Source: Methyloprofundus sp.
GTDB taxonomy: Bacteria; Pseudomonadota; Gammaproteobacteria; Methylococcales; Methylomonadaceae
Length of the DNA: 64,000 bases
Direction: 5' to 3'
Assembly (NCBI GenBank): GCA_012960135.1
Contig: DUBW01000075.1
Span: 1-64,000, forward strand
Part shown: positions 14,142 through 47,210 of the stretch, one piece after another
Numbering within the stretch: position 1 is the stretch's first letter
How the letters are laid out: every line of letters starts with the position of its first letter
Notes under the pieces: generated by a model
The model's input: only the letters and a program-made list of their open reading frames with translations
The model's database searches: none
Told to the model about the DNA's origin: nothing
Translations under genes and position numbers: made by a program

Positions 14142-17033
14142 TTAACCCGTGTTACGCAAACCCGCCGCTATAGCATTGATGCTGTTAAGAAGCTCAGGCA
14201 ACCAGAGCGCTTTTTCTTCCTCGGAGCCCTTTTCTGACTTGTAGCGCCTTAGCAGAGCAATCTGAATATTATTCAAAGGCACTAGATAGGGATTTCGACG
14301 GCTTAGTGAAAGTGCAATGCTGGGTGTGTCAGCCATTAAGGCTTGATTGCCACTGATTTCAAGAATGCGTTGTTCGGAACGCGTGTATTCATCAGCAATC
14401 AGGGTATAAACCGTTTGTGCAATTTCCTGGTTCTGTCCCAATAGGCTGTACTGTGCACCTATATCAAGATCAGTTTTAAATAGCGCCATCTGGATATTGC
14501 TAACCAATGCCCTAAAGAAAGGCCAGTCCTGATACATTTCTTTGAGTTGCGCATCACCATGTTGTTTAGTCCAGTTATCTAAAGCATACCCCGTACCTTG
14601 CCAGGCAGGGAAAGTGAGCCGCGCTTGAGCCCAGCCAAAAATCCATGGAATGGCGCGGATAGATGATTTAGATAAATTTCCCTTTTTGCGGTGTGACGGG
14701 CGAGAGCCTATATTCAATAATCCTATCTCGTTCACCGGCGTTGCTTCGTAGAAAAAGTTAAAGAACCCTGGAGTATCATCAGTTAGTTTTCTAAAACAGG
14801 CTTCGCCATCTTTCGCCAGTTTTTGCATGATCTCAAGGTACTCTGGATTATCCTGCTCTTGACTTTGCACAATTCCTTTACTAGCTTTCATCAAGCCAGT
14901 TACCCCCAGAGAGAGTTCATACATTGCCGTTTCAGTATTACTATATTTGTAGGACAGTACTTCACCCTGTTCAGTGAATTTAATGGAGCCGCGGACTGTC
15001 CCCGTAGGCTGTGACAGGATGGCAAAGTGTGTTGGCCCGCCACCACGACCAACGGTTCCACCGCGCCCGTGAAATAAACGACAATCTACTTCGTGCTCAT
15101 CGGCTAATACCATGATTTGCTGCTGCGCCAGGTAGAGTCCCCAGGCAGAGGATAGGTTCCCACCATCTTTTGCCGAATCAGAATAGCCGAGCATGATTTC
15201 CTGCTGGTTGCCAGATGCTTCAAGAAGAGCTTTGTAAGTAGCATTTTCAAAAACTGCCTGCGTTACCGGCACGATGTGTTCTAGGTCTTCGATGGTTTCA
15301 AATAAAGGCGCAATGCGAATATCGCAGTAAGCTTTCCCCGCGTTATAACCTGCCAGGCCTGCCTGATGCGCTAAAAACAACACTTCCATGATGTGACTAG
15401 CTTCATGCGTCATTGAAATAACGTAGTTATTAAAGGCCTTCTCACTGATTTCTTTACGCATCTCACGCACAACGTTGAACACCGCCATAACTTCTTTAGT
15501 CATTGGGTCAAGTGCCAGGTGTTGAATATCGATGATGGTTGCGGATGCAACATGTTGGGCAAGAATTTCCAGCTTTTCTTTTTCGCTCAGGCTTTTATAG
15601 GCTACACCTAGATGCGAAAACAGGTCAGCGACCGCATCGGTATGTACAGTAGATTCCTGACGAATATCTAAACGCATCAAATAGAAACCGAAGGTTTTGG
15701 CCAGGCGAATCAAATCTTGTAATTCTGCATTCGCTACTTTTTCATCGCCATGACTGCATAGTGAGTGATGAATCAATTCCAGGTCTTCCAAAAAGTCCGA
15801 CTCACTGTGATAGGCAAACAGACTTTTATCAATTGGGGCATCGTTAATACGTGCTTCAAGGTATTCGATATTCTGCTGCAGTCTGCCGTTTATGAGAGCT
15901 AGTAAACGACGGTATGGCTCATCTTTAAATCGCTCAAGACGTTTTTTAAAAACAGCGGCAATTAAATCAACATCTGCACTATCTGAGCGCTTAATCACGT
16001 CCTGTGAAATAGGACTGATAAAGCGAGAGTGCGTTAGCTTACAACCCAGATCAAGTACTCGTTTCTGATATTCATAGAATACAGCCCGAGACTGTAATAG
16101 TAGGGCCTGAACTGTTGTGTTATGCGTTACAAATGGATTACCATCTCTATCCCCCCCAATCCATGAACCAAAAGTCAGGAAGTTTGGTGTTTCAATGCTA
16201 TCGTCAGGGTAGTGTTTAGCAATAGCACGTTCCATGTAGCGATAAACCTCTGGAACAGCATCAAATAACGACTGGCGAAAGTAGTATATTCCATTACGAA
16301 TTTCATCTTCAACCGTTGGCTTCTGGCGACGCACTTCATCAGTCTGCCAAAGCACTTGAATTTGCATCTCAAGATTTTGATAAATGGAATCTTTTACATA
16401 CTTATTATTGTAAGTATCCGCTTCATTCAAGGCTCCGATATCCAGGAATATTCGCCTTAAATTATCCATTACTGCGCGTCGTTTTGATTCAGTTGGGTGA
16501 GCAGTGAATACAGGAATATAGTGCAATTTGTTTAATAGCGTTTGCACCTGTTCAGCATTTAGGCCTTGTGCTTTAAATTCACCTAGGGTATTGAGCACAG
16601 AACCTGTCCAGAATGGCCCATCTGATTTAAGCTGGCTTTGTCTTTCGTGATACTGATGCTCTTCTTCTGCTAGATTGACTAAACTAAAATACAAGTTGAA
16701 TGCGCGAATAATCGGAGCAAGTTCTTTTGCAGACAGAGATTCGATAAACTCGGTTAATTCAGCTTGTAATGCTGGGTTTTCTGCTTGCTCAAGCTGCAAG
16801 TAACCCGTACGCAGCTTTTCAACAGCATCATAAGCGGGCTTGCCAACTTGTGATTTAATCACTTTACCAAGGATGTTGCCTAGTAATTTAATACGTGCTC
16901 TGAGTTGCTTATCTCTAATTTCGCTATCAGCGGCTATGGAGTTTTGAATAGCGTTAATGGCAATTTCAGCATCTGTATTAGATTGACTATCCTTAGCTGT
17001 GCTTGTTAGCAAAGTCTCGTTTTCTATATTCAT
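14142..17033 (-). CDS. ppc: Phosphoenolpyruvate carboxylase
   Basis: Cytosolic enzyme fixing bicarbonate onto PEP to give oxaloacetate; in methylotrophs it refills the TCA cycle and serves serine-cycle-type carbon flow. Catalytic landmarks: VFTAHPTESKRRAVM with the active histidine, GSWIGGDRDGNPFVT, LGYSDSAKDGG, the glycine loop FHGRGGTVGRGGGPTH, and the invariant C-terminal RNTG. The frame stays open upstream to 17354, but that part is antisense to a decayed IS66 element. I place the start at the ATG at 17033 (MNIENETLLT), which has AGGT ahead of it, giving 963 residues, near or slightly above the family norm. Identity is certain, the start likely. Confidence 0.96.
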   Translation of the reverse strand: MNIENETLLTSTAKDSQSNTDAEIAINAIQNSIAADSEIRDKQLRARIKLLGNILGKVIKSQVGKPAYDAVEKLRTGYLQLEQAENPALQAELTEFIESLSAKELAPIIRAFNLYFSLVNLAEEEHQYHERQSQLKSDGPFWTGSVLNTLGEFKAQGLNAEQVQTLLNKLHYIPVFTAHPTESKRRAVMDNLRRIFLDIGALNEADTYNNKYVKDSIYQNLEMQIQVLWQTDEVRRQKPTVEDEIRNGIYYFRQSLFDAVPEVYRYMERAIAKHYPDDSIETPNFLTFGSWIGGDRDGNPFVTHNTTVQALLLQSRAVFYEYQKRVLDLGCKLTHSRFISPISQDVIKRSDSADVDLIAAVFKKRLERFKDEPYRRLLALINGRLQQNIEYLEARINDAPIDKSLFAYHSESDFLEDLELIHHSLCSHGDEKVANAELQDLIRLAKTFGFYLMRLDIRQESTVHTDAVADLFSHLGVAYKSLSEKEKLEILAQHVASATIIDIQHLALDPMTKEVMAVFNVVREMRKEISEKAFNNYVISMTHEASHIMEVLFLAHQAGLAGYNAGKAYCDIRIAPLFETIEDLEHIVPVTQAVFENATYKALLEASGNQQEIMLGYSDSAKDGGNLSSAWGLYLAQQQIMVLADEHEVDCRLFHGRGGTVGRGGGPTHFAILSQPTGTVRGSIKFTEQGEVLSYKYSNTETAMYELSLGVTGLMKASKGIVQSQEQDNPEYLEIMQKLAKDGEACFRKLTDDTPGFFNFFYEATPVNEIGLLNIGSRPSHRKKGNLSKSSIRAIPWIFGWAQARLTFPAWQGTGYALDNWTKQHGDAQLKEMYQDWPFFRALVSNIQMALFKTDLDIGAQYSLLGQNQEIAQTVYTLIADEYTRSEQRILEISGNQALMADTPSIALSLSRRNPYLVPLNNIQIALLRRYKSEKGSEEEKALWLPELLNSINAIAAGLRNTG

Positions 17034-17194
17034 GTATTTACCTGTATGACCGGCAAGTAGGCCGATGGGCTCTATTAAAATTACTAGTTTCGCAAAGTAA
17101 CTGAAGTTACGTTCTGTCGACAAACTCAAATCATAAGAAATAAGGATAAAATATTTATTGCACATTGCCAAGAATTTTTCTGACAGGTTCCAGG

Positions 17195-18247
17195 CTTCCG
17201 TATCCAGTGAGATTAGCAATCTGCAAAAGAAGAGCTGGATATTATTCCTGCTAAAGTGCGTGTTCTTGAATACATGCAAGAAAAAACGGGCTTTGTCGAA
17301 CTCGTTGAAGGCGAAAAACAACGTCAAGTTAAGTCCGCACAAAGGGCCAAACATCCTATTGCCAGAGCAATGGGATGCATTATTTTAATGTGTTTTATCA
17401 TTATTGCCAAGTATGCTGACGGCTTACCTTTATATCGGTAAGAAGGCACCTTGTTACGTTATGGCAGAGAACTCTCCAGAGCAACATTAGAAAACTGGAT
17501 GATCGCACTGGCTAAACCACTTCAGCCCCTGATTAACCTGATGCGAGAGCATCAACATGCAGGGGCAGTGATACGGGGCGATGAAACACGGGGGCAGGTA
17601 TAAAAAAGCCTGAGCGGGCCACCCGGTGAAAAAAGCGCTTTGTTTGAGCATGATCCATCCCGAAGTCAGAAGGTGCCCATGCGCCTGCTTGATGGTTTTA
17701 GTGCCTACCTGCAAACCGATGGTTGTGCGAGCTATAGTGCCGTCAGTATCATTCAACCAGGGTGCTGGGATCACGCGCGTCGTTATTTTAAAGATGCCCA
17801 GAACGCTCAGCCCAAAGCCAAAAAGAGAAAAAATAACAAACCCTCAAAAGCAGGTAAAGTGCTGAGCCTGATTAACAAGCTGTATATCATTGAACGAGAA
17901 ATTAAAGAATGGTCAGTAGATGAAAAATATCAGCAACGACAGGAGAAGAGTATTCCAATGCTGAATCAGCTCAAAACTATCTGGAAGAAAGCCAACATAA
18001 AGTACCTAAAGATAGCCTGACAGGTAAGGAAATGACTTATCTGAGTAACCACTGGAAAAAACTCAATGTGTATTGCACCCATGGAAAATTCAATATTAGC
18101 AATATCCTGGCGGAAAATGCGATTCGCCCGTTTGTGATAGGGCGTAAAGCCAGGTTATTTTCTAATACACCCGCACAGGTGCTCACTGCTTTACCTTATG
18201 CTGATACTGTTGATAACAGTCGAAGCTTTGTTGCCTTGGAATATTAA
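17195..18247 (+). pseudogene. Decayed IS66-family TnpC transposase
   Basis: Pieces of an IS66-type transposase in several frames: KEELDIIPAKVRVLEYMQEK near 17227, RAKHPIARAMG, a stop after DGLPLYR, then RYGRELSRATLENWMIALAK, a stop after RGDETRGQV, then DGFSAYLQTDGCASYSAV and GCWDHARRYFKDA, then after another frame change NILAENAIRPFVIGRKARLF. These correspond in order to the TnpC core including the DE(T) and DG motifs, but the N-terminal third and other IS66 genes are missing. It is a non-functional relic immediately upstream of ppc. The bases from 17034 to 17194 hold the ppc leader and no gene. Confidence 0.8.
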
Positions 18248-25356: not shown

Positions 25357-26979
25357 CTATAGTAATAAGCGGCGAATATCGCCTAAATATTTAATCAGTG
25401 TAGACATAAATCGAGCCCCTTCTGCGCCATCAATGACCCGATGATCATAGGTCAAATCCAGAGGAAGCATTAATTTAGGTTCAAATTCAGAGCCATTCCA
25501 CACAGGCTTCATTTCTGAGCGTGTCACACCTAAAATAGCAACTTCAGGCGCGTTGACAATCGGGGTAAACGCTTTACCACCGATCCCACCTAAACTGGAA
25601 ATTGTGATACAACCACCACGCATATCTGCGGGGAGTAATTTACCATTACGCGCTTTCTCACTCAGTTCAGATAAATCCCGGGTTAATTCGGCAATACCTT
25701 TTTTATCCACACCTTTTAACACCGGGACGACTAAACCGTTAGGTGTATCAACCGCAATACCGACATTAAAGTATTTTTTCAAAATCAAAGACTCTCCATC
25801 AGGTGATAAAGAACTATTGATTTTTGGAAAGTGTTGCATTGCAGCGACCAGCGCTTTAACGATAAAGATCAAGCCTGTCACTTTTATCTCAGTCGATTTA
25901 TCTGCATTCAGTGCCTTGCGAAAAGCTTCCATTTCGCTAATATCAGCTTCGTCATGATATGTCACTAGCGGTAAGTTTAACCAGACCCGGCTTAAATTCT
26001 GCCCGGTCAGGCGTTGTATTTTACTCAGCTTTTGCTCTTGAATCTCACCGAACTTACTGAAATCTACTGCCGGAATTGGCGGTATTCCCGCGCCACCTTG
26101 TAATGGCACACCTGATGTCATTACTTGTTTGATAAAGTTCTTAACATCGTCTTTTAAAATACGCCCCTTGCGCCCACTACCCTGCGTAATCTGGCTAATA
26201 TCCACGCCCAATTCACGGGCAAATAAACGTACACTTGGGCTGGCATGAGCCGATCTACCTGACTGGCTGACAACAGCTACATTCGAGTTGCTTGCGGCAA
26301 CGCTTTGTTTAACAGGAGCCGGCGTTGGCGCAGAACTGCTAACAGGCGCTGCTGTTTTTTCTTGTTGATTAACAGCGGCTACGGGTGGCTCTGCGGACTG
26401 TACTTCCAGGCTGATAATTAAAGCCCCTTCAGAAACCTTATCGCCAACCTTAATAAACACATCTTTAACAATCCCGGCATCGGTCGACGGCAAATCCATA
26501 CTCGCCTTATCAGTTTCTAAAACAGCAAGCGTCTGCTCTTTTTCTACCGTGTCGCCCGTTTGAATTAATACCTCGATCACATCAATATCAGCCACATCAC
26601 CGACATCCGGGACTTTGACTTCAATAATACTAATGCTACCGCTAGCTTCAACTGGCTGCGCAACTGGAACCTCTGCCTGTTCGGGGACATCGATTTTAAC
26701 ATCCTCTACCCCGATTACTTCTTCAGTCGCAACACTTTCACCCGCTTCCAGAATAACCACCAAAGCCCCTTCGGACACCTTATCACCGACACTGAAATGA
26801 ACCGATTTCACGATTCCTGCCGCACTGGAGGGCAAATCCATACTGGCTTTATCTGTTTCTACCACGGCCAGGGTCTGCTCTACTGCAACAACATCACCCA
26901 CTTTCACTAATACTTCAATGACATCCATATCAGCAACATCACCGACATCAGGCACTTTTACTTCTGTTAATAGCGTCAT
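25357..26979 (-). CDS. aceF: Pyruvate dehydrogenase E2 (dihydrolipoamide acetyltransferase)
   Basis: Core of the PDH complex, 540 residues. Two tandem lipoyl domains each carry ETDKASMDLPS (lipoylated lysine at residue 44 and again near 163), separated by an acidic/alanine-proline linker. Next come a peripheral-subunit-binding domain (SPSVRLFARELGVDISQI) and the catalytic domain (about 300-540) with the active-site TYDHRVIDGAEGARF. Two lipoyl domains rather than the three of E. coli is common outside enterics. The lipoyl lysines are substrates for LipB in the same run. Fifteen bases after aceE. Confidence 0.97.
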   Translation of the reverse strand: MTLLTEVKVPDVGDVADMDVIEVLVKVGDVVAVEQTLAVVETDKASMDLPSSAAGIVKSVHFSVGDKVSEGALVVILEAGESVATEEVIGVEDVKIDVPEQAEVPVAQPVEASGSISIIEVKVPDVGDVADIDVIEVLIQTGDTVEKEQTLAVLETDKASMDLPSTDAGIVKDVFIKVGDKVSEGALIISLEVQSAEPPVAAVNQQEKTAAPVSSSAPTPAPVKQSVAASNSNVAVVSQSGRSAHASPSVRLFARELGVDISQITQGSGRKGRILKDDVKNFIKQVMTSGVPLQGGAGIPPIPAVDFSKFGEIQEQKLSKIQRLTGQNLSRVWLNLPLVTYHDEADISEMEAFRKALNADKSTEIKVTGLIFIVKALVAAMQHFPKINSSLSPDGESLILKKYFNVGIAVDTPNGLVVPVLKGVDKKGIAELTRDLSELSEKARNGKLLPADMRGGCITISSLGGIGGKAFTPIVNAPEVAILGVTRSEMKPVWNGSEFEPKLMLPLDLTYDHRVIDGAEGARFMSTLIKYLGDIRRLLL

Positions 26980-26994
26980 AATAAACTTCTTCTG

Positions 26995-29676
26995 TTAGAT
27001 TAACCAAGGCGCAATGATATCTGCATTAATATTATATTTTTTAATAGCCTCATCTATTTTCGCAGCATCGAATTCACCTTTATCTGCCAGACTTTTCAGC
27101 GCTGCAATAGTAATATGATGGCGATCGACTTCAAAGAAACTGCGTAATTTCTCTCGCGTATCAGAACGGCCAAAGCCATCGGTACCCAGAACCGTATAGT
27201 CAGCATTTATAAAAGGTCGAATTTGCTCGGCGAAAGCCCGAATATAGTCAGTTGCGGCAATCGCTGGTATCTCTGTTTTTGTAAGATATTTTTCTACATG
27301 AGAAACCCGTGCTTTTGCTGTCGGATGTAAGCGATTCCAACGTTCACAAGCCACACCATCACGAGCCAGCTCAGTAAAACTAGTACAACTCCAGAGGTCT
27401 GCTTCAACGCCCCAGTCATCACGTAATAATGCCGCCGCCTCAACGACTTCACAAAAAATCGTACCCGAACCCAGCAGGTTTACCTTAGGTGCTTTTTTAC
27501 GGCTAATGCCCGACTGGAACAAGTGCATGCCTTTTAGAATATTCTCAGCCGCGCCATCAGGCATCGGTGGTTGATCATAGTTCTCATTCATCACCGTAAT
27601 ATAGTAGAACACATCTTCCTGTTCAGCATACATGCGACGCAAACCATCCTGCACAATAACCGCTAATTCATAACCATAAGTTGGATCGTAAGAAATACAA
27701 TTAGGAATGGTTGCCGACATTAGATGACTATGGCCATCTTCATGCTGCAAACCTTCGCCATTCAAAGTGGTACGCCCTGCTGTACCGCCGAGTAAAAAGC
27801 CCCGAGTACGCTGGTCAGCAGCTGCCCAAATCAAATCACCGACACGTTGAAAGCCAAACATGGAATAGTAAATAAAGAACGGAATCATCGGTACATTGTG
27901 CGTGGAATACGAAGTTCCCGCCGCAATCCAGTCGCATAAGCCGCCTGCTTCATTAATTCCCTCTTGCAGCACCTGCCCGGCTTTATCTTCTTTGTAGTAC
28001 ATTAATTGCTCGGCATCTTGCGGTGTATATAGCTGACCGACTTGTGACCAGATACCTAATTGGCGGAACATACCCTCCATACCAAAGGTACGTGATTCAT
28101 CAGGTACGATTGGTACAATACGCTCGCCAATTTTTTTATCTTTGACCAGAATATTAAGAATTCTGACAAATGCCATGGTAGTGGAAATACCATGGCCTGC
28201 TTTAGTACCATCTAGTACTGCTTGAAAAGCGCTTAGTTCAGGAACTTCCAGAGCGTCAGATTTTTGTCTCCGTGCAGGAATATGACCACCCAGTGTAGTT
28301 CTGCGCTCCAGCATGTATTTATATTCTTCTGAGTCTTCAGCAAATTTCAAATACGGTAAGCTCTCAATTTCTTTATCCGTCACCGGAAGTTGCCAGCGGT
28401 CACGGATATTAATGATTGATTGCAGACTCATTTTTTTCTGCTGATGGCTGGTGTTCTGTGCTTCACCCGAGTCTCCCATACCATAACCTTTAATGGTTTT
28501 CGCCAGGATAACGGTAGGCTGATCTTTATGCTCATTAGCGGCCTGGTAAGCGGAAAAGACTTTAATTGGATCATGGCCACCACGATTAAGTGACCATATA
28601 TCTCTATCGGTATATTCAACAACCAGTGCTTTTAACTCAGGAGTATTAAAGAAATGCTCCCGCACATAAGCGCCATCTTTGGATTTATAAGTTTGATAAT
28701 CACCATCGACGCACTCCATCATGCGCTTCATAATCAAACCCTCTATATCTTTAGCCAACAACGCATCCCAATGCCGACCCCAGATCACTTTGATTACGTT
28801 CCAGCCTGCGCCACGGAAGCTACCTTCTAACTCCTGAATAATCTTGCCATTACCACGCACCGGACCATCCAGGCGCTGCAAATTACAGTTAACCACAAAA
28901 ATCAGATTATCCAGCTGCTCACGACCCGCCATGGTAATAGCGCCCAGTGTTTCTGGTTCATCGGTTTCACCATCACCCAAAAAGGCCCAGACTTTACGAT
29001 CTTCTGTTTTAGCAAGTCCCCGACTCTGCATATAGCGCATAAAACGCGCCTGGTAAATCGCCATAATGGGACCCAGCCCCATAGAAACCGTAGGGAATTG
29101 CCAGAAATCAGGCATTAACCAGGGATGCGGGTAAGAAGAAAGGCCATTACCACCGACTTCCTTACGAAATTGATCCATTTGCTCTTCAGGAAAACGGCCT
29201 AATAAATAAGCCCGTGCATAATCACCAGGACAGGAATGGCCCTGCACGAAAACCATATCAGCGCCTCGCTTTTCTGTTGCGGCATGCCAGAAATGGTTAT
29301 GCCCAACATCATATAAAGTAGCCGCTGATGCAAAGCTGGCAATATGCCCACCTACATTAGTATGCTTATTGGCTCTTAATACCATCATCATTGCATTCCA
29401 GCGCACATACGCGCGAATTTTACGCTCGATAGTGGTCATCCCTGGATACTTGGGTTGTTGTTCCACAGTTATGGTATTGACATAAGCGGTATTCGCGCTA
29501 AAGGGAATGGCTGCACCTGAAAGTCTAGCCATTTCGACCAACTGACTAATTATAAACTGGACCCGTTCATTGCCATCCTGCTCTTCAATAGCGCCTAATG
29601 CTTCCAACCATTCTTTAGTTTCTTCCGGATCTATATCAAGCTGATCTAGCATATTGGCATTTAAACCATTACTCAT
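26995..29676 (-). CDS. aceE: Pyruvate dehydrogenase E1 (homodimeric)
   Basis: Thiamine-diphosphate enzyme decarboxylating pyruvate and acetylating the E2 lipoyl group. Landmarks: HFWHAATEKRGADMVFVQGH, the ThDP/Mg motif FLGDGETDEPETLGA with GAGWNVIKVIWGRHWDALL, VAKT-like ILAKTIKGYGMG, and GLQHEDGHSHLMSATIPNC. I place the start at the ATG at 29676 (MSNGLNANML) preceded by AGGAG; an in-frame TTG five codons upstream is less likely. This gives 893 residues, normal for the AceE type. It is the first gene of the long minus-strand run. No pdhR regulator is adjacent. Confidence 0.97.
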   Translation of the reverse strand: MSNGLNANMLDQLDIDPEETKEWLEALGAIEEQDGNERVQFIISQLVEMARLSGAAIPFSANTAYVNTITVEQQPKYPGMTTIERKIRAYVRWNAMMMVLRANKHTNVGGHIASFASAATLYDVGHNHFWHAATEKRGADMVFVQGHSCPGDYARAYLLGRFPEEQMDQFRKEVGGNGLSSYPHPWLMPDFWQFPTVSMGLGPIMAIYQARFMRYMQSRGLAKTEDRKVWAFLGDGETDEPETLGAITMAGREQLDNLIFVVNCNLQRLDGPVRGNGKIIQELEGSFRGAGWNVIKVIWGRHWDALLAKDIEGLIMKRMMECVDGDYQTYKSKDGAYVREHFFNTPELKALVVEYTDRDIWSLNRGGHDPIKVFSAYQAANEHKDQPTVILAKTIKGYGMGDSGEAQNTSHQQKKMSLQSIINIRDRWQLPVTDKEIESLPYLKFAEDSEEYKYMLERRTTLGGHIPARRQKSDALEVPELSAFQAVLDGTKAGHGISTTMAFVRILNILVKDKKIGERIVPIVPDESRTFGMEGMFRQLGIWSQVGQLYTPQDAEQLMYYKEDKAGQVLQEGINEAGGLCDWIAAGTSYSTHNVPMIPFFIYYSMFGFQRVGDLIWAAADQRTRGFLLGGTAGRTTLNGEGLQHEDGHSHLMSATIPNCISYDPTYGYELAVIVQDGLRRMYAEQEDVFYYITVMNENYDQPPMPDGAAENILKGMHLFQSGISRKKAPKVNLLGSGTIFCEVVEAAALLRDDWGVEADLWSCTSFTELARDGVACERWNRLHPTAKARVSHVEKYLTKTEIPAIAATDYIRAFAEQIRPFINADYTVLGTDGFGRSDTREKLRSFFEVDRHHITIAALKSLADKGEFDAAKIDEAIKKYNINADIIAPWLI

Positions 29677-29772
29677 CCCATACTCCTGCAATTTTATGTA
29701 TTGTGCCTATACCGGCCACTCTAAAAACTATTCTCGGCTGGACAACAAGACGGCCCACCCCGCGTTACTTAT

Positions 29773-30194
29773 CTAGGTTTCTGCATTGGCAATCGCTTCT
29801 GCAGCCAATGCCGTTACTCTATCCCAATCTTTATTCTTCACTGCACCTGCGGGCACTAACCAGGACCCACCGACACAAGCTACATTTTTAAGTGCCAGAT
29901 AATCATTATAATTACTCGGCGATATACCACCCGTAGGGCAAAAGGTAATGTGTGGAATCGGTCCTGCAATCCCTTTTAACATGGGAATGCCGCCTGCCGC
30001 TTCTGCCGGAAAGAATTTAAAATGATCCAGCCCATATTCCATACCGAGCATCAGTTCTGAAACCGAAGCAATTCCTGGAATTAATGCAATATCACTTTTA
30101 TTTGCTGCCGCTAAAAACTTCGGGGTGAACCCCGGGCTAATGGCAAAGACAGCACCCGCTTCGCTAACCGCCTGTAATTGTTCCGGCGGGGGAA
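29773..30194 (-). pseudogene. eda: KDPG aldolase fragment (C-terminal two thirds)
   Basis: Encodes the C-terminal part of 2-keto-3-deoxy-6-phosphogluconate aldolase: [51 protein letters not shown] with the Schiff-base lysine, [20 protein letters not shown], and [11 protein letters not shown]. The first 65-70 residues, which hold the catalytic glutamate and substrate arginine of the family, are absent. The upstream open codons come from edd in another frame. The sequence jumps directly from edd into mid-eda at about 30185-30195, so one deletion removed the rest of edd and the start of eda. The enzyme cannot be complete as it stands. Confidence 0.85.
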
Positions 30195-30452
30195 TCTTTA
30201 TAGGATTCATGCGCAGATAACATATCATTATAAGAAGAGATAATCGCAATATTTGCTTTCTTATCACTGGCTAAATCAGCCTTATCTCCAGTATTACACG
30301 CTGCAAAACCGTGCGATAGATTACCACAAGCCAGAGTTGACCGATGCGGTCCTTGCTCGGCAGCCTTATCTATATGTTTTAAATTAAAGATTACGTACGA
30401 CACGACTACGCTCAATGATTTTTTGAGTGACGTCTTCTACTACTGGATGCAT
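30186..30452 (-). pseudogene. edd: 6-phosphogluconate dehydratase fragment (N-terminus)
   Basis: The ATG at 30452, with GAGGAAAAAGG ahead of it, opens MHPVVEDVTQKIIERSRVVR, matching the Edd N-terminus, then stops. A second frame resumes RSTLACGNLSHGFAACN and [19 protein letters not shown], which match Edd residues of about 35-80 in E. coli. There the similarity ends and eda sequence begins out of frame. So edd has one early frameshift and lacks nearly all of its roughly 600 residues. With the eda fragment it records the loss of a local Entner-Doudoroff pair. Confidence 0.85.
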
Positions 30453-30555: not shown

Positions 30556-30617
30556 TATACTTCGCGCGGTCACGGATGCGGTTGTTTAGCCTGTAGAGCG
30601 GACTAAAGTCCGCCCTA
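30556..30617. repeat. Half MITE end plus small GCGGACT hairpin
   Basis: TATACTTCGCGCGGTCACGG (30556-30575) equals one end of the element at 48576-48732, without its partner end. It is followed by TAGAGCGGACT / AGTCCGCCCTA (30594-30617), a hairpin whose arm overlaps the stop codon of the TRAP gene and may serve as its terminator. Related hairpins occur at 36037 and 55376-55442. Confidence 0.55.
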
Positions 30618-31700
30618 CACTATAGCCCTGGCTTTTAAAAAGGCCTGTTCAGATAAAGCACTCCATTGAGAGACCTGAGCTCTAAACTGGCTAAATGAAG
30701 TATAAATTTTCTTACTTAACGGGTCTTTATCTGCCAGTTCAAGTACCACCTCATCAGAAAGTTGTTTTAATTTGCGCAACACATCATCAGGCAACGGCAT
30801 TAGCTTGACACCATGCTTATTAATCAAAGTATCCAGAGCCTGATTATTTTTCGCCGTATAATCAGACAACATATCCATATTGACTGTTTTACATGCTGCC
30901 ATCACAATACTTTGCAAGTCTACTGGTAATTCATTAAACGCCTGTTTATTTATCATTGCCTCGATGGTGGAACCCGGCTCATGCCAGCCAGGGTAATAAT
31001 AATATTTAGCCACCTTATAAAAACCAAACGCCAGATCATTATAAGGCCCAACCCATTCCGTAGCATCCAGCGCTCCAGACTGCAAAGACGTAAATAGCTC
31101 TCCACCCGGTATATTTACTGTAGTTCCACCCGCTCTGCGCAACACTTCGCCACCTAAGCCAGGAATACGCATTTTCAAACCTTTTAAATCAGCTACGGTT
31201 TTTATTTCCCTGTTAAACCAGCCGGCCATTTGCACACCCGTATTACCCGCTGCTGCCGGAATTAAATTAAACGGTTCATAGAGCTCTCGCCATAGTTCGA
31301 TGCCACCACCATAATACAGCCAAGCATTCATTTCCTGAGCGGTTAAACCAAACGGCACTGAAGAAAAAAATTGCGTAGCTTCATTCTTGCCCTTCCAGTA
31401 ATAGGCACCCGAATGCCCCATTTGCGCAGTCCCTCTGGAGACTGCATCAAACACTTCAAAAGCGGGAACTAATTCATTTGCGCCGTAGACTTTTACTTTA
31501 ATACGCCCGCCACTCATCTCGTTAATCTTCTGTGCCAGCTGATTTGCACCTACGCCCAGACCCGGGAAATTCTTCGGCCAGGCAGTGACCATTTTCCATT
31601 TATACTGTGCTTTGGCATGCACAACACCGGGTGCAAGCAATGCCCCACCGACCGCTACTGCACCCACACCAGTTTTATTAATAAAATCACGTCTTTTCAT
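30615..31700 (-). CDS. TRAP transporter DctP-type substrate-binding protein (orphan)
   Basis: Periplasmic solute-binding protein of 361 residues. A twin-arginine signal (MKRRDFINKTGVGAVAVG, cleavage near VHA) suggests export in folded form. The mature part is a DctP/TakP fold: WKMVTAWPKNFPGLGVGANQ, GAYYWKGKNEATQFFSSVPF, LKGLKMRIPGLGGEVLRRAG with the carboxylate-binding arginine, GGELFTSLQSGALDATEWVG, and KYYYYPGWHEPGS. The last blocks resemble TakP-like binders of keto acids. No DctQ or DctM membrane subunits lie nearby, so partners must be elsewhere. The exact ligand is unknown. Confidence 0.9.
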   Translation of the reverse strand: MKRRDFINKTGVGAVAVGGALLAPGVVHAKAQYKWKMVTAWPKNFPGLGVGANQLAQKINEMSGGRIKVKVYGANELVPAFEVFDAVSRGTAQMGHSGAYYWKGKNEATQFFSSVPFGLTAQEMNAWLYYGGGIELWRELYEPFNLIPAAAGNTGVQMAGWFNREIKTVADLKGLKMRIPGLGGEVLRRAGGTTVNIPGGELFTSLQSGALDATEWVGPYNDLAFGFYKVAKYYYYPGWHEPGSTIEAMINKQAFNELPVDLQSIVMAACKTVNMDMLSDYTAKNNQALDTLINKHGVKLMPLPDDVLRKLKQLSDEVVLELADKDPLSKKIYTSFSQFRAQVSQWSALSEQAFLKARAIV

Positions 31701-45492: not shown

Positions 45493-46043
45493 TACGCTAT
45501 CCGATTAATTTCTTATGAAAACTAATAATAACACGGGAACTTATCAGACGAAAGCATGCAAATATAAAGCTCAAAAAAGAACAGTCACTTAACTATTTAT
45601 ATGCCTATTTTATTAAGACTTGAAGTGTACTGCATATTAAAAGACTCATCTACCAAGTTCTGAAAGCCGTACTGCAAAGCTTGCCTGATTTGTTTTAGCT
45701 CCCTGGCAAACTGATTTTCAGCGATTCAAAGTATTTAATGCAGCACAAGTAAATCAATAGGATAGAAAATAGTAAAGAGCAGAGATTAAAAGAGCTTGAC
45801 CAGACACACGAATATCATGAGGTGATAAAAAGAAAACTAATTTATGTTTAGTGCCGCTACTCCAGCCTTACTGATTCAAGGAGACGGAAAAGTGTGCCTT
45901 GTGGAAATGATGGGCATTAACAAGTCCAGCTACCCGAGATACTCTGAATCGATACTGATTTTTTCACGACTTGAAGTGTATCATTATCTATGTCATGATT
46001 GACAAATTTTTCCGATAATTTTAACCTTTTAAGAGGCGTTTCA
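45493..46043. other. Long intergenic stretch before sga
   Basis: No gene seen. Two features stand out: the 12-mer ACTTGAAGTGTA occurs twice (about 45620 and 45969), and a TTGACA box (45998-46003) lies 17 bases before TAACCT, a weak but possible promoter directly ahead of the sga ribosome site. Confidence 0.4.
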
Positions 46044-47210
46044 ATGGCTGGTCGTAACCACCTGTATATCCCTGGTCCCACTAATTCTCCGCATGAAGTA
46101 TTAAGTGCCATGCACCTTCCAATGGAAGATCACCGCGCGCCTACATTCCCACTGTTGCTCAAGCCGGTTTTAGAAGACTTAAAAAAAGTATTCAGAACAG
46201 AAACAGGACAAGCCTTTATTTTTCCTGCAACGGGAACAGCGGGCTGGGAAATTGCTTTAACTAACACTCTAAACCCAGGTGATAAAGTACTGATCTATCG
46301 CTTTGGTCAATTTAGTCATTTGTGGATGAGCATGGCTCAGCGCCTAGGCCTGGATGTAGAAATGCATGAAGTTGAATGGGGTAAAGGCATCCCATTAAAT
46401 GACCTGGAAGCGCGCTTAAAAGCAGACAGCACACATGAAATCAAGGCTGTACTAGCGACGCATAATGAAACAGCGACGGGTGTAACCAGTGATATGGCTG
46501 GTGTGCGTAAAGCAATGGACGCATCCAGTCACCCTGCTCTCTTATTTGTCGATGGTGTCAGCTCTATCGCAAGTCTTGATTTCCGAATGGATGAATGGGG
46601 TGTTGATGGTGCAATCAGTGGCTCGCAAAAAGGTTTTATGTTACCTGCCGGCCTTGCTATCCTAGCTTTCAGTCAGAAAGCACTTGCCTTAACAGAAACG
46701 GCAACTTTCCCACGCTGCTTTCTAGATCTAAAAGACCAAATGGCGCAGAATGCCTTGGGTTACACTCCTTACACGCCTTCGACACCAATGATACACGGCC
46801 TACGCGCAGCACTGGATATTTTATTAGAAGAAGGTATGGAAAATGTTTATGCCCGTCATCACCGCTTAGCCGAAGGGACGCGTAAAGCTATTGCTGCCTG
46901 GGGATTAAAGCTTTGTGCCCAGCCAGGATTTGAATCAGATACTGTTTCTGCCATAGTCGTACCAGAAAATAAAGATGCACGCGATGTGATTGCAACAGCA
47001 TTCAATAAGTACGATATTTCTTTAGGTGCCGGCTTAACAGAAGTGATGGGCAAAGTATTCCGTATTGGCCATATTGGCGATATGAATGATGTTTCTATGC
47101 TTGGTGCGATTGCCGGTGTAGAGATGGCATTGCTGGATAATGACTTTGATATTACACCAGGAAGTGGTGTTGCTGCAGCTATCGAGTACTATCGTTCAAC
47201 TGCCGCATAA
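46044..47210 (+). CDS. sga: Serine--glyoxylate aminotransferase
   Basis: PLP class V aminotransferase of 388 residues, transferring the amino group of serine to glyoxylate to give hydroxypyruvate and glycine, a serine-cycle step. Signatures: AGRNHLYIPGPTNSPHEVL, LPMEDHRAPTFPLLLKPVLE, FPATGTAGWEIALTNTLNPG, and the PLP lysine in DGAISGSQKGFMLPAGLA. IPGPTN and HRAP near the N-terminus are characteristic of Sga. I use the ATG at 46044 with AGAGG seven bases ahead; the upstream in-frame ATG at 45999 is inside the promoter region. No other serine-cycle genes (hpr, glyA, mtk) adjoin, so the pathway is incomplete locally. Confidence 0.94.
   Translation: MAGRNHLYIPGPTNSPHEVLSAMHLPMEDHRAPTFPLLLKPVLEDLKKVFRTETGQAFIFPATGTAGWEIALTNTLNPGDKVLIYRFGQFSHLWMSMAQRLGLDVEMHEVEWGKGIPLNDLEARLKADSTHEIKAVLATHNETATGVTSDMAGVRKAMDASSHPALLFVDGVSSIASLDFRMDEWGVDGAISGSQKGFMLPAGLAILAFSQKALALTETATFPRCFLDLKDQMAQNALGYTPYTPSTPMIHGLRAALDILLEEGMENVYARHHRLAEGTRKAIAAWGLKLCAQPGFESDTVSAIVVPENKDARDVIATAFNKYDISLGAGLTEVMGKVFRIGHIGDMNDVSMLGAIAGVEMALLDNDFDITPGSGVAAAIEYYRSTAA

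Follow-up and report, generated by a model that had tools for sequence, protein, structure and literature searches.

The window analysed here is a stretch of 64,000 nucleotides of Methyloprofundus sp. DNA, and its source genome (G000) was compared within a set of 18 genomes of the Methyloprofundus-group genus, G000 included. On the minus strand of the window, running from 30452 to 29773, the first ~270 bases of edd lead straight into the last ~427 bases of eda in a different frame, and this collapse of the edd-eda pair is real and confirmed. The 5' remnant of edd (30184..30452, minus strand) starts with an ATG at 30452; edd positions 23-87 are readable in a second frame, and profile search places positions 23-87 of the 601 of TIGR01196 at 30167-30415 on the same strand (E 3e-21). 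Alignment with four intact edd sequences revealed one extra A near 30384, because of which the frame opening at the ATG reaches a stop after 22 codons. The 3' remnant of eda (29773..30199, minus strand), in which eda sequence resumes at codon ~79, is open up to its own stop and matches positions 70-202 of the 204 of TIGR01182 (29776-30267, minus strand) as well as positions 70-196 of the 196 of PF01081. Going by the coordinates, three different frames are involved, one each for the ATG, the body of edd, and the body of eda. An earlier sequence-only reading of this DNA had described an edd reduced to an already frameshifted start that runs out of frame into the middle of eda, and both points are borne out.

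The deletion junction (~30183..30199, minus strand) falls inside an imperfect GATT(C/A)CC repeat. This repeat is common to edd and eda of G015 (edd GATTCNCC; eda GATTACCA) and less exact in G010, G007, and G006; the deletion may have arisen there through slippage or end joining. That the pair was collapsed by a deletion, as the earlier reading also held, agrees with the distances found in relatives, since between the same two points all 13 of the same-genus genomes measured carry 1,851-1,949 more bases (the measurement left out G011 and G013, both of which match eda). Relative to intact orthologues, the disabling lesions are a frameshift, an early stop, and a deletion of 1.85-1.95 kb (13/13 comparisons).

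Immediately downstream of the eda remnant, as in relatives, lies aceE (26995..29691, minus strand), a full-length open frame, followed by an open aceF (pyruvate dehydrogenase E2; 25357..26979, minus strand) named by sequence reading and place. Upstream is a gene for a dctP-type TRAP transporter binding protein (30615..31700, minus strand), which also lies next to edd, on its upstream side, in G006, G007, G010, and G015. These four genomes, the nearest by eda DNA identity, keep an intact dctP-edd-eda-aceE order (the contigs of G006 and G015 stop inside aceE), which excludes chance and answers the comparison with close relatives that had been proposed. The window thus has the order of the intact Methyloprofundus edd-eda-aceE region, but the middle 1.85-1.95 kb is gone and edd is frameshifted. 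One copy of a dispersed ~35-bp genus repeat lies upstream of the edd start and outside the deletion (30556..30590, no strand assigned); it has many matches in genus genomes, most of them in G010 and G001. A short inverted repeat is visible by eye just after it, at ~30592-30622.

Could the fusion be an assembly artefact across the short repeat, or a deleted minority strain captured while most cells keep the operon? The position of the junction at such a repeat would fit, as would the high strain heterogeneity reported, in the text of PMC8788690 available to us, for two mussel symbionts sequenced there. However, the same edd remnant carries a separate frameshift, the flanks are syntenic with relatives, the G000 assembly holds no further edd or eda copy, and two relatives (G001 and G002) have no edd, eda, or traces of them near aceE. 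The separate frameshift, together with the absence of the operon from two relatives, makes an assembly error unlikely, and we regard this explanation as distinctly improbable. The site is very probably a recent pseudogene pair, produced by a one-base insertion in edd and a deletion of ~1.9 kb, in either order.

State and age of the remnants

The catalytic N-terminus of eda had been described as gone, which is only partly so. About 78 N-terminal residues are missing, among them the part holding LEITLR, and HFKFFPAEA, which holds the equivalent of Lys133, is retained. The available text of PMC5334617 gives Lys133 a catalytic role and assigns substrate recognition to Glu45 and Arg49; the Glu and Arg of LEITLR are the putative counterparts of these two residues of the E. 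coli enzyme, judged from spacing and not from an alignment.

Both remnants remain close to their intact counterparts. Compared with eight relatives, the eda remnant gave dN of 0.047-0.092 and dS of 0.80-1.92, with ratios of 0.036-0.076; the edd remnant gave dN of 0.020-0.091 and ratios of 0.024-0.101 for seven of the eight, one comparison yielding no estimate. On the own branch of the G000 eda, three-taxon arithmetic with G010 and G007 gave dN of ~0.044, dS of ~0.32, and a ratio of ~0.14, and the amount of amino acid change on this branch is well below that expected from neutral drift over it. Since the edd and eda remnants are so little diverged, the loss is recent, in agreement with the earlier reading. 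The same data bear on whether a C-terminal eda product is still made and used: the open frame of 164 aa is free of stops, the lysine motif is kept, and pairwise dN/dS is below 0.1. A low dN/dS is equally expected after a recent loss, however, while the ratio on the G000 branch (~0.14) compares with 0.005-0.078 for the intact pairs listed in the underlying dN/dS analysis, and the ~78 missing residues include the LEITLR part; continued use of the remnant is in our judgment barely credible.

Loss of the Entner-Doudoroff pathway within the genus

The G000 assembly yielded no second edd or eda. It is 90.09% complete and in 92 contigs, so that another edd/eda, phosphoketolase, or phosphofructokinase (PFK) gene could sit in a gap. 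The only other TIGR01196 match in G000 is a PF00920 gene on contig C59, which falls below the edd cut-off and was taken as ilvD. Of the two possibilities raised by the sequence-only reading, reliance on another route or a second edd/eda copy, the first is the one supported; the assembly showed no second copy.

Apart from G000, 15 of 17 genus genomes have a match to eda (PF01081), the exceptions being G001 (98% complete) and G002 (77%). Fourteen of the 18 have edd above cut-off; the others are G000 (a fragment), G001, G002, and G011, the last a 63%-complete genome with eda. The aceE locus is present in both G001 and G002, with no edd, eda, or trace of either nearby. Searches for residual edd or eda near aceE in G001 (L191), G002 (L192), and G019 (L193) found none: blastn returned four matches (18-28 bases, E 0.11-0.37), of which L191 and L193 each had two and L192 none, and tblastx gave no match at 0.01. 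In G001, a transposase of the IS701 family lies ~0.7 kb upstream of aceE.

In aceE trees of 15 genomes, G000 groups with G001 with moderate support only (75/88, nucleotide/protein), these two group with G010 (100/96), and the clade then takes in G007 and G002 (95/100). In eda itself, however, G000 is nearer to G007 (84%) than to G010 (82%). Because G010 and G007 have an intact ED pathway, the loss in G002 is a separate event. Separate losses are probable for G000 and G001 too; a shared ancestral loss was considered and judged unlikely, as the remnants in G000 show little divergence and lesions in a further gene, pta (below), differ between the two genomes. If aceE mirrors the species tree, ED has probably been lost about three times in the genus, and the readable edd-eda scar in the window marks one among several parallel losses.

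Among the 23 relatives from outside the genus, 16 are without eda. Two genomes of the same family but other genera, G019 and G021, likewise lack eda, and neither has an edd that passes its cut-off; they keep a PF00365 match, a phosphoketolase, and a fructose-6-phosphate (F6P) aldolase with Ala at position 129.

Remaining routes from methane carbon to trioses

It is generally held that RuMP methanotrophs must have PFK/FBA, ED, or phosphoketolase if they are to obtain trioses from methane carbon. The reactions of transketolase, transaldolase, and HPS leave the count of sugar-phosphate molecules unchanged; stoichiometry thus implies that a net gain of trioses depends on a cleavage that brings in phosphate or yields an additional phosphorylated product. 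G000 has HPS above cut-off (on contig C4), as does G001, and G000 is a RuMP methanotroph of the Methyloprofundus group with recent ED loss, as the sequence-only reading had conditionally supposed.

The glycolytic variant named there, if read as ordinary glycolysis, is not supported as the substitute. PFK (PF00365) has no match in the 90%-complete G000 and is missing in 17 of the 18 genus genomes, while all 23 genomes outside the genus match PF00365. A PfkB-type phosphofructokinase was also sought in G000 and rejected: the first PfkB-family match is HldE (687.8 bits, cut-off 521), and the second, under every cut-off, is nearest to a nucleoside kinase (104 of 450) and to ribokinase. The sole PFK match in the genus (G014:C161:167-1036) comes from a genome with 7% contamination and may lie on a stray contig. 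Phosphoketolase (PF09364), whole or partial, occurs in 10 of the 18 genus genomes, with no match in G000, G001, G002, G006, G007, G011, G015, and G016. RuBisCO was found in none of the 18.

A further gene in decay is pta, which adjoins an aldolase gene. In G000 its pieces lie in different frames (L278:10294-12342, contig C11), and in G001 it is also broken, by different lesions (L279:10674-11934, contig C12). The pta part beside the aldolase matches in one frame in G003, G005, G007, G008, G009, G010, G012, G014, and G015 (stops not counted), that of G009 being a 697-aa open frame; no match was found beside the aldolase in G004, G016, and G017, and the survey of this neighbourhood left out G002, G011, and G013.

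With these routes missing or broken, fructose-6-phosphate aldolase (FSA) is probably the main remaining way from methane carbon to three-carbon units. The FSA of the genus would split F6P into dihydroxyacetone (DHA) and GAP, and a DHA kinase would then phosphorylate the dihydroxyacetone; we propose that G000 tolerates the loss of ED because the genus already cleaves F6P in this way. Such a scheme supposes that the G000 aldolase is active and carries flux, and that a DHA kinase is present in G000 by analogy with four genus members for which one has been published. A scan of 282 sequences for a DhaK motif (the window and the loci, including five RuMP-cluster stretches; most of G000 lies outside this set) gave a single hit, in G022, a member of another genus.

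Much of this picture has precedent. In the text of PMC8788690 available to us, INp10, WF1, and the endosymbionts of B. japonicus and B. platifrons are listed as having no pfk or fba and as having fsaA and dhaKL, and the B. japonicus endosymbiont as also having no ED and transcribing fsaA highly. That endosymbiont belongs to the same genus, and the absence of ED and of pfk parallels the absence of ED and of a PFK match in G000; FsaA-DhaKL was proposed there as the glycolytic route. G000 differs in that the edd-eda fusion scar is still readable. According to a passage of PMC10199937, the Idas modiolaeformis symbiont has ED only and that of B. japonicus resembles it, in contradiction to PMC8788690 on ED; we prefer the version of PMC8788690, since its authors sequenced the B. 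japonicus symbiont. Judged from that text, the basic metabolic conclusion (no pfk or fba, FsaA-DhaKL, and ED loss) is already published, and G000 is a further instance.

Alternatively, some route that escaped detection may have taken over instead of FSA, such as a serine-type cycle or a phosphoketolase or PFK hidden in a gap of the incomplete assembly. The window itself has a full-length Pfam match to PEP carboxylase (14142-17354) and, at 45999-47210, a class V aminotransferase gene (Pfam), both of which could serve such a cycle. Set against this, the text of PMC8788690 at hand describes four genus members as having an incomplete serine pathway and INp10 as missing hydroxypyruvate reductase, and the 98%-complete G001 is also without PFK, phosphoketolase, RuBisCO, and ED. 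We consider an undetected route unlikely and retain FSA as the probable replacement. According to the same source text, the two mussel endosymbionts studied lack oxaloacetate-forming anaplerotic enzymes, yet the window has its PEP carboxylase match. A fragment of an IS66 transposase lies near that gene, at 17640-18020.

The fructose-6-phosphate aldolase and its Ser-129 form

An FSA-type match (>100 bits, whole or in pieces) is present in 17 of the 18 genus genomes; the other, G006 (66% complete), has a transaldolase-size match only. The G000 gene is intact (contig C11), and the 12 best PDB matches of its product are all named fructose-6-phosphate aldolase (187-198 bits, vs. 116 for the best transaldolase). 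Chain 1l6w of FsaA, of E. coli origin, is among its closest solved relatives, and Q59, K85, T109, Y131, and R134 of that chain are conserved in the G000 aldolase. Tyr 131 and Lys 85 of the FSA active site are thus both present, whereas transaldolase B has Phe in place of the Tyr; exchanging this Phe178 for Tyr is reported to give transaldolase B FSA activity (PMC3962226, in the part available). The G000 aldolase differs from FsaA in having Ser rather than Ala at position 129 and in falling below the curated FSA cut-offs (208.7 vs. 245.95 bits for TIGR00875; 265.8 vs. 306 for NF009296); the TIGR00875 cut-off was passed in none of our 41 genomes, G009 included, vs. 8 of 14 control genomes.

Of the 17 genomes with an FSA-type match, G000, G001, G002, G007, G010, G011, and G015 (loci L253, L256, L259, L262, L264, L267, and L269) have Ser at FsaA position 129; the remaining 10 have Ala. 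In a tree of 21 aldolase proteins, with G038 left out, the Ser types form a single cluster with support of 100, the deeper nodes being weak. In all five of the seven Ser-type genomes whose neighbourhood was inspected, pta adjoins the aldolase. ED-less genomes make up three of the seven Ser types and none of the 10 Ala types (Fisher p 0.051, uncorrected for relatedness); since Ser probably arose once, this association is a lead and not a test. Nor does Ser force the loss of ED, because four Ser-type genomes still have eda. An indirect search of the literature did not turn up the association.

As a tentative explanation, which we hold to be possible but less probable than not, a sub-clade may have exchanged or rapidly remodelled its F6P aldolase into the divergent Ser-129 form, making other carbon-splitting routes dispensable; ED would then have been lost about three times, phosphoketolase would have gone in most members, pta would have decayed, and FSA with DHA kinase would be left as the sole net triose-forming step. 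If true, this would add one more naturally occurring cleavage variant of the RuMP cycle, operating on its own. Several observations count against a link to Ser-129. The A129S exchange in FSA is reported to raise efficiency toward DHA 17-fold (PMC3962226, in the part available), but that gain concerns DHA as substrate and not F6P cleavage; moreover, phosphoketolase is retained in G010, a Ser type, and missing from G016, an Ala type. The divergent aldolase nevertheless offers a concrete, testable candidate cause of the ED losses, and a lineage in which PFK/FBA, ED, and phosphoketolase are missing or broken provides a natural test of whether FSA can carry all C1 assimilation.

Divergence within the genus suggests that the aldolase was replaced, or went through a burst of change, because aldolase identity is lower than aceE identity. 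The G000 aldolase is 54-57% identical to the Ala types of the genus, which are themselves 63-85% identical to that of G009, whereas full-length aceE products of 12 genus genomes are 85-95% identical to that of G000 (81% for a 172-residue piece from G004). Scored against FsaA 1l6w, the Ala type of G009 reaches 222.0 bits vs. 197.4 for the G000 aldolase.
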